Origin: a virus
Strand: one strand, 5' to 3'
Length of the DNA stretch: 42,212 nucleotides
IMG/VR virus record: IMGVR_UViG_3300020152_000013
Coordinates: 1-42,212 of that record
Below are positions 12,083-42,212 of this stretch, piece after piece. How positions within the stretch are numbered: position 1 is the first letter of the stretch; each line of letters opens with the position of its first letter. The notes beneath the pieces were generated by a model. The model made no database searches, was not told where the DNA came from, and saw only the letters and a list, made by a program, of their open reading frames with translations. Made by a program: the position numbers and the translations under genes.

Positions 12083-12832
12083 CTAGCCCCAAGGGCCGCG
12101 CTTCGGAGCGCCGCTCGGTATTGCGTTCCATATCGAAAACCGCATCTCCTTCGCCGGAGTGTTTCCCTTGAGGTTTTTGTCGGGGAACCGCGCCGCGACG
12201 TAATCGGCCAGCTCGCGTTTCGGCCCTACGAGCTGTCGGTCGTTTCGTATCGCGGTGAACGCCCCGAGGGGCACATCCAGGAGCTGAAGCAGCAACTCCC
12301 GCTTCGAGTCCCGGGGTTCAATACTGTCGATGCAATCCGTGGCGGCCGCGTGGTGGTGGCTCCCCCACTGATGAAGGCTGTCGATCTGGTTTACCAGGGC
12401 CGCGGTGCAGTCGCCATTGTCCGGTCGGATCCGCAGCTTATAGCGCTGCCCGTAAAAGCGCAGGGCGCGGTGCAGCAGGAGCTGAAAGTGCATCTTGCTT
12501 GTCGTGTCTACGCGCCGCTTCGGGCCGCTAAGCCGGTGATCGTATTTGTCAAACGGCGCGAACCGGATGTGGAAGTGAAAGCGCCCTGTGGTGACCCCAG
12601 CGTGGAAATGATCCACGAACGCCTTGTGGGCGCTATCACGGCGCGACTTCACGGCATTCCACTTCGTCTCTGACGGCCCGCCCAGCTGCTTCTTGATATC
12701 CGCGAGTTCGTCAGTAACGGCTTGTAGCTCGTAGTCCGGAATAGCCAGGCCAGCAACCGCCATGAACTCGTCATCGACGTACGAGCTTTCATCGCAGAAG
12801 AAGTACACGAATTTTGCCGCAGGCTTTGCCAT
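12083..12832 (-). CDS. DUF3800 protein (RNase H-like fold), possibly shortened by an amber codon
   Basis: The 249-aa product has the DUF3800 start FVYFFCDESSY (acidic D-E pair), followed by SETKWNAVK and later acidic/His positions (RPDNGD, SLHQWGSHHH). DUF3800 proteins are common in phages and mobile elements and have an RNase H-like fold; their targets are mostly unknown. The stop is TAG at 12083-12085. The same frame stays open for 36 coding-like codons to a TGA at 11972-11974, so the gene may have lost its end or be read through. GC is lower than its neighbours. A GTG at 12856 is an alternative start. Confidence 0.75.
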   Translation of the reverse strand: MAKPAAKFVYFFCDESSYVDDEFMAVAGLAIPDYELQAVTDELADIKKQLGGPSETKWNAVKSRRDSAHKAFVDHFHAGVTTGRFHFHIRFAPFDKYDHRLSGPKRRVDTTSKMHFQLLLHRALRFYGQRYKLRIRPDNGDCTAALVNQIDSLHQWGSHHHAAATDCIDSIEPRDSKRELLLQLLDVPLGAFTAIRNDRQLVGPKRELADYVAARFPDKNLKGNTPAKEMRFSIWNAIPSGAPKRGPWG

Positions 12833-12903
12833 GGCGGACAACAAAGCCGAATCCACTCACGCGCACAAGTTTGCCGGACTCGCGCGCCAGTGGCCCGCCC
12901 GTC

Positions 12904-34016: not shown

Positions 34017-34312
34017 GCCGCCCTCACGCGCCGGGCGAACTCGTTCCGGCCGGGGCCGCCCTGCCACACGAACGGCGGGGGCTTCAGCAGGTCCACCTGC
34101 TCCTGCACCAGCAGCTTGCGGAAGCCCTCGTGGTTGCGCAGGAACTCCCATGCCGTCTGCGTTCGGGGCAGCAGCCGGCCGTCCTTGAGCCGGGCGCCAT
34201 GCAGGTAGGCGTCCGCCGAGCCCTCGCTGCCGAGAACCGCGACCGCCCGCTCGTAGAACTCCAGCGGTACAGTGATGTCGAAGGGGCCTGAATAGCGTCC
34301 GGTGTAGTTCAT
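34013..34312 (-). CDS. Hypothetical protein, 99 aa
   Basis: The product begins MNYTGRYSGPFDITVPLEFYE and has a helical middle (TAWEFLRNHEGFRKLLVQEQVDLL) and a basic end. It lies directly after the replication initiator gene with a 4-base overlap. No recognised family. Confidence 0.6.
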   Translation of the reverse strand: MNYTGRYSGPFDITVPLEFYERAVAVLGSEGSADAYLHGARLKDGRLLPRTQTAWEFLRNHEGFRKLLVQEQVDLLKPPPFVWQGGPGRNEFARRVRAA

Positions 34313-35031
34313 TGGATCTGCTCCAGGATGCGGTCACGGTCGGCAAGGAAGTCGTTGCTCACAGCGGTGCGGGGGCCTGTCGGCGGAGGCTGGCCGGAGG
34401 GGGTCGTGGTGTGCTCGTCGTTCCAGCGGCCTTGGTGCAGCCAGGTCGAGGGGTTGCACCACGCGCGGTCCTCGGGCTTGGCGAGCTTGTAGGCTTCGAC
34501 GGCAGCGAGCACGGCGGCGAGGCTGGGCAGGCGCTTCTCGGGCTTCGAGGCTTTGCGGGCGGCGTCCCACTCGGCCTTCGCCTTCGCCTTGCCGACCTTG
34601 TGCGGATAGGCCTCCCAGAAAATCGGGAAATCATGCGCGCGCGCACTGTCCGAAGAAGCGATAGCTTCTGAGGTATGAGGGTTACTTACGGTTTCCCCGC
34701 AGGAGCTGCGGGGGTCCACGTCGTTTCCTGCGGGGCGCACGTCCTGCGGGGCGCATTTGCTGCGGGGGTCCACATGGTAGAGAACGCCCTTCCCCGGCCG
34801 CTCCGTGCGGGTCAGGTAGCCCGCCTCGCACAGCCGCTTGATCGCCCCCTGAATGGCCCGCTCGCTCAGGGAGCACTTGGTCAGCAGGTCCAGCTTCTCG
34901 GGGTTCTTCGAGCGTAGAGCGGTCCAGCACACGCCATCGTCGTTGGCGGCGTCCGCGAGGGCGAGCAGGACCATCTTGTCCGTGGGGGACAGGTCCAGCC
35001 GCCATGCCTGCGTCATCAGGGCGATGCTCAC
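34309..35031 (-). CDS. Replication initiator-like protein (winged helix N-terminus)
   Basis: The 240-aa product starts MSIALMTQAWRLDLSPTDKMVLLALADAAND in two pieces, then LSERAIQGAIKRLCEAGYLTRTERPGKG, a winged helix found at the start of phage replication proteins such as lambda O types. The C-terminal half (FPIFWEAYPHKVGKAKAKAEW, WCNPSTWLHQGRWND) is the helicase-loader-like end common in such proteins. A run of iteron-like repeats lies inside the gene. No polymerase or helicase is encoded here, so it probably recruits the host machinery. Confidence 0.75.
   Translation of the reverse strand: MSIALMTQAWRLDLSPTDKMVLLALADAANDDGVCWTALRSKNPEKLDLLTKCSLSERAIQGAIKRLCEAGYLTRTERPGKGVLYHVDPRSKCAPQDVRPAGNDVDPRSSCGETVSNPHTSEAIASSDSARAHDFPIFWEAYPHKVGKAKAKAEWDAARKASKPEKRLPSLAAVLAAVEAYKLAKPEDRAWCNPSTWLHQGRWNDEHTTTPSGQPPPTGPRTAVSNDFLADRDRILEQIQ
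34695..34775. repeat. Iteron-like repeats inside the replication gene (candidate origin)
   Basis: CTGCGGGG begins at 34706, 34728, 34744 and 34760, each followed by GTCCACRT- or CGCAC/T-like bases. The last three are 16 bases apart. An inverted partner CCCCGCA at 34695-34701 faces the first copy with a 5-base centre (GGAGC). Repeats inside an initiator gene are the arrangement of the lambda-type origin. They also encode a repeated protein phrase (VDPRSKC, VDPRSSC), so selection on protein could contribute. Confidence 0.55.
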
Positions 35032-35513
35032 GCGGCGGCCCGCCCTTCCCGAAGCATCCGCGCTTCGTGCTGAACGAGCCCGTGATGGACCGACGAGTGA
35101 TCGCGTTGACCGATGCGGCGGCCGATGGCGTGCAGGGACAGTCCAAGCTCGTGGTTCAGCCGCCAGTAGACTTCATACCTGGCCGTCGTCTCCCGACGCT
35201 TGCGGGAGGGGCCGATGATGTCGCGCTCGGGTATGCGATGCTTCGCGGCGACCTCGCTGAGGATGACGCGCCACTTAGGCAGGGGGATGGAGCGCCGGAC
35301 CGGTTCGGCAGGGCACGCCTCCGCAACCTCGCGGGCGGGCGGCGCGCGGCGAACGGACAGGTCAGGGGCGACGCCGGCGAAGTGCGCGGCCAGGACCCGC
35401 TGAAACCGGCGGTCCTGCTCGCGGGGGCACGACGGGACCGCAGGCCAGCCGCGCTTGAACTCGGCGTAGGCCGCCGAGGCGTTGCGGCCATTGGCGACGT
35501 AATCGAAGGTCAT
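35028..35513 (-). CDS. DnaA domain IV-like DNA-binding protein
   Basis: The 161-aa product carries VAAKHRIPERDIIGPSRKRR and LHAIGRRIGQRDHSSVHHGL near its C-terminus. This is the domain IV signature of DnaA (the GRDHSTV-type loop), which binds DnaA boxes. The ATPase part of DnaA is absent. The N-terminal 80 residues are unlike DnaA. It lies next to the initiator gene and RusA, so an origin-binding role is likely. It may compete with or assist host DnaA. Confidence 0.7.
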   Translation of the reverse strand: MTFDYVANGRNASAAYAEFKRGWPAVPSCPREQDRRFQRVLAAHFAGVAPDLSVRRAPPAREVAEACPAEPVRRSIPLPKWRVILSEVAAKHRIPERDIIGPSRKRRETTARYEVYWRLNHELGLSLHAIGRRIGQRDHSSVHHGLVQHEARMLREGRAAA

Positions 35514-41783: not shown

Positions 41784-42205
41784 AACAGTCCGACAGCATC
41801 GCACCCGAGATCGCCATGGCGGCGGTGCGGGCCATTGGCGGCGACAAGCCGGAACGGACGCTGCGCCAGCACCCCGATTTCGCGTCTCGGTTCTGGTCGA
41901 AGGTGGAGTTCGAGCCGAACACCGGCTGCTGGCTCTGGTCTCGCTCTACCGACCGACACGGCTACGGGAACGTCAACGTGTTCGGTCGCTATCAACGCGC
42001 CCATCGCGTCGCCTACGCCCTCGCGCGCGGCCCCCTCCCCGACGTGCCCGGATATCACGGAGCGGTCGTGATGCACCGCTGCGACACGCCGCTCTGCTGC
42101 AACCCCGACCACCTGAGCGTCGGCACTCAGAAGGCCAACCTCCGAGAGATGGGGGCCAAGGGCCGGCAATGGAAAACTGTGGAGAAGAACCGTGCAACAG
42201 TCTGA
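41780..42205 (+). CDS. HNH endonuclease crossing the contig junction
   Basis: The GTG at 41780 follows GGAGG and overlaps the previous stop. The 141-aa product has TGCWLWSRSTDRHGYGNVN, RAHRVAYALARG, MHRCDTPLCCNPDHLSVGT and a basic tail. HRCD...CCNPDHL is the HNH metal/catalytic core. It resembles the HNH gene at 38585 in layout but has no C-terminal helix-turn-helix. The two lie at either end of the block of small early genes. Its 3' end is repeated at 1-120 and overlaps the ERF start. Confidence 0.85.
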   Translation: MKQSDSIAPEIAMAAVRAIGGDKPERTLRQHPDFASRFWSKVEFEPNTGCWLWSRSTDRHGYGNVNVFGRYQRAHRVAYALARGPLPDVPGYHGAVVMHRCDTPLCCNPDHLSVGTQKANLREMGAKGRQWKTVEKNRATV

Positions 42206-42212
42206 AAGCATC
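42086..42212. repeat. Direct terminal redundancy, copy 2
   Basis: These 127 bases are identical to 1-127. Joining the ends restores one intact HNH gene and leads directly into the ERF gene, so the map is circular. Confidence 0.95.

Follow-up and report, generated by a model that had tools for sequence, protein, structure and literature searches.

In phage lambda, the replication initiator O is accompanied by a phage helicase loader (P or DnaC-like), an association which does not extend to all O-like relatives. The lambda origin carries four inverted-repeat iterons in the middle of the O gene, next to an AT-rich tract (PMC7466680). The control of gene transfer agents in Hyphomicrobiales involves gafA, a DUF6456 gene, with a small DnaA-like gene in front of it (PMC9638019). 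We have analysed the virus record IMGVR_UViG_3300020152_000013 of IMG/VR (positions 1 to 42,212, called the window below), in which an O-like initiator gene lies next to a stand-alone gene resembling domain IV of DnaA. The sequence suggests, with a probability of about 0.75, that the initiator gene holds its own replication origin, following the intragenic design of lambda. The initial annotation of this DNA had read repeats within this gene as a possible origin, a view supported both by the statistics of the array and by its conserved place in relatives.

The array is located inside the initiator gene (34309-35031, - strand), about 264-325 nucleotides (nt) from the gene start. On the + strand, CTGCGGGG is found at 34706-34713, 34728-34735, 34744-34751 and 34760-34767, with a further copy on the - strand at 34695-34702. 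The four direct copies have start-to-start spacings of 22, 16 and 16. In coding-strand orientation the unit becomes CCCCGCAG, with intervals of 16, 16 and 22. Four repeats with the last three 16 bases apart, an inverted copy and a location within the initiator gene had all been noted initially, and positions and spacings are confirmed. The inverted copy is present but is not a separate partner: as each iteron is a CCCCGCA-N5-TGCGGGG dyad, it corresponds to the far half of the last iteron. Iteron 1 has its core at 34760-34767 (+ strand; coding-strand unit CCCCGCAG, dyad CGCA-N5-TGCG) and iteron 2 at 34744-34751 (+ strand). Iteron 3 (core at 34728-34735, + strand) has lost its second half-site and shows AACGACG instead. 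Iteron 4 is a perfect 7-base-pair (bp) dyad, CCCCGCA-GCTCC-TGCGGGG, composed of a core (34706-34713, + strand), a 5-nt spacer and a second half-site (34695-34702, - strand). Over 82 iteron cores from 16 genes, half-site complementarity reaches 3.16 of 4 at a spacer of 5, versus 0.46-1.18 at all other spacers.

The iteron cluster is beyond chance. The window as a whole includes 10 copies of CTGCGGGG against 5.5 expected, and the array is its only place with at least three copies of any 8-mer within 80 bp; no other 500-bp stretch reaches three. When the codons of the initiator gene were shuffled synonymously, none of 2000 shuffles reached four copies in 80 bp (maximum 3), and when the limit was widened to 110 bp in another run, 1 of 500 shuffles had four. 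None of the spacings (16, 16 and 22) is divisible by three, and a repeated peptide is therefore not the driver: the encoded peptides differ, and selection acts on the DNA. The iterons are almost certainly functional DNA sites.

Absence of the repeats from relatives with the same initiator had been named as the observation that would speak against an origin. However, at least three exact copies of an 8-mer are found in 13 of 16 initiator clusters (clustered at 70% identity). The array starts at nt 241-279 of the initiator gene in 12 of these 13 clusters; the remaining one (L033 type) has as its best repeat the AACC motif described below, further on in the gene. Where no copy is skipped, iterons of the relatives are spaced by 16-18 or 21-24: the sequences differ while the geometry is kept. 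The spacing is 17, 17 and 22 in locus L003, in Sphingopyxis phage VSN-002 and in Microcystis phage Mvi-Yong1342-1 (L085). The AACGACG that takes the place of the second half of iteron 3 is part of AACGACGT, between iterons 3 and 4 (34718-34725, - strand). It is kept in four other phages (L003, L085, L115 and L116), in different reading frames, and might be a second site. It is missing from L097, L113 and L114, although the DnaA domain IV gene is present there. The intragenic repeats are not significant in the initiators of Devosia L090, Rhizobium L104 and L105 and Bradyrhizobium L106, so that the array is not general to initiators lying beside domain IV genes. The L094 and L109 initiators carry other repeats, which stand out in 100 shuffles. 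The L033 group (36 loci from Pseudomonas-type phages) has helices of the CMS-x-RAVRTAMD form and another kind of repeat (TGCGCCCC / GCAGGGGG); AACCGTCA is present there three to four times, 11-12 bp apart.

Beyond the array, a lower-GC (guanine plus cytosine) stretch (34634-34694, - strand) contains two AACC motifs (34690-34693 and 34680-34683) and is a candidate unwinding element on the grounds of its composition and of comparison. Positions 34615-34694 are the third-lowest-GC 80-bp stretch of the window (51% vs 67%). All 15 genes tested have a pair of AACC motifs, 10-12 bp apart, at a fixed distance past the last iteron, and the pairs fall in all three reading frames. In most single genes the pair is not significant (0.3 to 40% of shuffles have one); it is thus recurrence alone that speaks for it. 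A literature search on the AACC motif returned nothing relevant. Strand folding identified a small hairpin past the lower-GC stretch (AGAAGC-TATC-GCTTCT, 34654-34669, - strand), and similar hairpins were spotted by eye in L097, L085, L003 and L005. The origin region as a whole folds no better than its shuffles (z = -0.22). TCCACA motifs are not enriched beside the iterons, with a single one in the region, and a promoter scan around the origin region revealed no promoter-like site nearby.

The product of the gene is an O-like replication initiator of 240 residues (34309-35031, - strand), with matches to HTH_36 (1.1e-8), phrog_270 (3.4e-31; annotated in PHROG as replication initiation) and the O-like family phrog_391 (5.8e-17). 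As expected of a lambda O-type initiator, it has a winged-helix DNA-binding N-terminal domain and belongs to an O-like family. Fold comparison recovers a winged helix, and its weak matches include plasmid initiators and the DnaD N-terminal domain. The C-terminal domain (34408-34674, - strand), with the pattern FW-x-x-YP...W-x-x-P-x-x-WL...RW-x-D, is common to other phage replication proteins (phrog_9327, 2.3e-10; phrog_9474, 4.5e-16). The predicted recognition helix of the winged helix (LSERAIQGAIK region, 34834-34869, - strand) covaries with the iteron sequence. In the first set of sequences, an Asp before the conserved Arg goes with CCCCGAA iterons in all four cases. Among newly fetched sequences held out for checking, five of five new Asp types also carry CCCCGAA (9/9 overall), and this Asp/GAA type falls in two separate supported clades of the tree. 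Three residues on, again in the first set, Gln is associated with GCA or GAA and Arg with GGCA or TGCA, L097 excepted. Across the initiators of L003-L117 the pattern is Asp with CCCCGAA, Gln with CCCCGCA and Arg with CCCCGGCA. Such covariation supports, but does not prove, binding of the initiator to the iterons in its own gene.

Positions 1-127 and 42086-42212 of the window form an exact direct terminal repeat of 127 bp, so that the genome is probably complete and was assembled as a circle. It is therefore meaningful that no helicase or polymerase gene can be recognised. No DnaB_C or IstB/DnaC match is present in the window, the lambda P family not having been searched in a targeted way with its own model. 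No polymerase or helicase family appears among the listed matches of the window genes (25 of 46 families in one listing), in agreement with the initial claim that this phage encodes neither.

The sequences themselves show the array and its dyad form, the constancy of its position and spacing, its conservation at the DNA level and the covariation of iteron and recognition helix. For dimer binding, opening and helicase recruitment we infer the following course. The winged-helix N-terminal half of the initiator would bind the four dyad iterons, probably as dimers, the iterons lying in the DNA that codes for the linker of the protein. The adjoining lower-GC stretch with its AACC motifs would then be opened, and the C-terminal domain may recruit the replicative helicase of the host, as the phage encodes none.

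Several points weigh against an origin at this place. The AT-rich tract expected beside the iterons exists but is modest. The AACC pair of the window is not significant by itself, as 156 of 1000 synonymous shuffles contain one. The structure model of the initiator is weak overall, with a mean predicted local distance difference test score (pLDDT) of 64. The covariation has exceptions: L143 and L185 have Glu yet GAA iterons (L185 at one site only), and L097, with Gln and GGCA, breaks the Gln rule. Much of the comparison set consists of redundant Pseudomonas-type phages. Finally GC skew, a check proposed in the initial annotation, makes no clear turn along the window and gives no clear origin signal, and is hence uninformative.

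Alternatively, the repeats might serve autoregulation rather than replication, the winged-helix initiator using sites inside its gene as an operator to repress that gene or its operon. This is very unlikely, as the sites are about 260 bp into the coding sequence rather than at a promoter, and as the constant layout of iterons, AACC pair and lower-GC stretch matches lambda-type origins. The linker is proline-rich in relatives, and a repetitive peptide at this place could in principle have produced the DNA repeats as a side effect. This idea is in the main refuted and has hardly any probability left: spacings of 16, 17 and 22 shift the frame from copy to copy and so keep the encoded peptide from repeating, synonymous shuffles fail to reproduce the array, and the dyad and AACC elements are kept across frames.

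The gene upstream of the initiator gene, which it overlaps by 4 bases, encodes a stand-alone DnaA domain IV-like protein of 161 residues (35028-35513, - strand; Bac_DnaA_C, 1e-10, residues 84-145). The helix-turn-helix of domain IV (35079-35264, - strand) is assigned by profile and by solved structures and exhibits RDHSSV for the RDHTTV of DnaA. No AAA+ ATPase domain III is found and Bac_DnaA_C is the only domain detected, which bears out the initial description of a gene restricted to the DNA-binding domain of DnaA. In the AlphaFold2 model domain IV has a pLDDT of 96-98, and the best fold match in the PDB is 1j1v, DnaA domain IV with a DnaA box (template modelling score 0.73 by target). Residues D138 and H139 are nearly invariant among relatives. 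The N-terminal half is variable and poorly predicted. DnaA boxes are not in excess in the phage: 11 one-mismatch sites are observed vs 10.6 expected, without any cluster and with none in the initiator region. Should the protein have kept its recognition of DnaA boxes, its targets are therefore more likely to be host sites. Used as a lone query, the protein (P0002) recovered almost nothing. L083 runs antisense to an unrelated gene, H41 is a contig that carries a complete cellular dnaA, and the matches in 385 genomes of one bacterial class are frames of DnaA size (453-500 residues). Several "phage" records match through a cellular dnaA (H41; H67 and H68, which are Salmonella genome contigs of more than 500 kilobases, kb) and are misleading in such searches.

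According to a profile search, 24 phage records encode domain IV as a gene of its own; 11 of these have an O-like or primosomal gene no more than about 1.7 kb away, and a DnaB gene is nearby in several others. In the initiator clade of the window, the domain IV gene is upstream of the initiator in L097, L085, L113, L114, L115 and L116. The initiator was the sole criterion for retrieving L113 to L116; the same scan yielded a fifth locus, L117, whose upstream sequence amounts to just 158 bp. This recurrence in related phages supports the pairing of the two genes proposed initially. VSN-002, from the same initiator clade, has no domain IV gene and carries DnaB instead, and a search of 22 further O-type records, some of which are fragments, did not find the gene. 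No DnaB is found in 12 of 22 O-type relatives. DnaB or IstB occurs in none of the 11 phages with a close pair of domain IV and initiator genes, vs DnaB in 11 of 23 O-type phages without the gene (Fisher p = 0.006, for a small sample mixing incomplete records and related phages). No description of a DnaA domain IV and O-like initiator pairing was found in the open literature, most subscription papers being outside the search, and a literature search for a phage DnaA domain IV protein returned nothing relevant. A gene with a ParB_N domain directly precedes the initiator in Mvi-Yong1342-1 (L085, 3348-4001), and a ParB-like gene is found likewise in L113. The 44.7-kb L090 (Devosia plasmid NZ_CP063402) includes a terminase and other phage genes, the domain IV gene, a winged-helix initiator and DUF6456, and is probably a phage-plasmid.

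The most likely role of the DnaA-like protein, although a tentative one, is that of an accessory factor or regulator of this replication module: it would be translated together with the initiator and act as an accessory DNA-binding factor or regulator. Such a role is favoured solely because of the repeated position beside replication initiators, and stands at roughly even odds against the transcription-factor and decoy readings below combined. More specifically, the protein might act with the initiator at the intragenic origin, perhaps at the AACGACG between iterons 3 and 4, as a second factor dedicated to O-type phage origins. By linking the origin to the DnaA/DnaB pathway of the host it would replace a helicase or loader of the phage, but this reading is doubtful. 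A transcription factor comparable to a split GafA, working with a DUF6456 partner on late genes and without a direct role at the origin, is suggested by DUF6456 in two domain IV phages (Devosia plasmid-prophage NZ_CP063402 and Bradyrhizobium phage ppBeUSDA76-2) and by a sub-threshold match in a third (L093). It is rather improbable since no DUF6456 match is found in the window, in L097 or in Microcystis phage L085, initiator adjacency (11/24) is commoner than DUF6456 (2-3/24) and the DnaA-like gene overlaps the initiator gene. The protein could also be a decoy which occupies DnaA boxes of the host origin, blocking host initiation and freeing helicase and replisome for the phage. Retention of the base-reading motif without the AAA+ domain, the lack of enrichment of DnaA boxes in the phage and the lack of a phage-encoded helicase would agree with this. 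However, a decoy does not need a position beside the initiator gene and some other phages with the gene possess their own DnaB, which makes it unlikely.

RusA is located upstream of the pair of initiator and DnaA-domain genes and the terminase downstream, while Erf, NinB and HNH genes are found elsewhere in the genome. A DUF3800 gene (12083-12856, - strand) lies between structural and early genes.

A probable replication origin can thus be placed precisely in an unannotated phage. The lambda design would extend to a broad set of phages, and the rule relating helix and iteron could help to predict where origins lie in further phage genomes. Should the DnaA-like protein take part in replication, it may represent a route by which a phage without helicase or loader commandeers host initiation.

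Compared with lambda O and its origin, and with the Shiga toxin phage relatives, the window shares imperfect inverted-repeat iterons midway through the initiator gene, an AT-rich tract and a PHROG O-like match. It differs by its CCCCGCA-N5-TGCGGGG iterons, its 16/16/22 spacing, the AACC pair past the array and the GC-rich DNA, as well as by the DnaA domain IV gene upstream and the lack of a recognised helicase loader. Among relatives whose host has a name, the nearest infects Sphingopyxis. The helix-turn-helix protein of Sphingopyxis phage VSN-002 (MZ127829) is 52% identical over the first 100 residues and has its array in the same place. However, that phage encodes a DnaB-like helicase of its own, has a GIY-YIG gene upstream and lacks a DnaA domain IV gene. 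Microcystis phage Mvi-Yong1342-1 and the IMG/VR contig 3300008448_000231 (L097) resemble the window in their O-like initiator with an intragenic array, their stand-alone domain IV gene upstream and their lack of DnaB, but 0.75-1.6 kb separate the two genes where the window has a 4-base overlap, and the cores are CCCCGAA and CCCCGGCA. With GafA the window shares the DnaA-like DNA-binding domain, without the DUF6456 partner. The protein has the fold and base-reading motif of DnaA domain IV (1j1v) but stands alone. The DnaA domain IV partner would make this locus a variant of the lambda-type origin.
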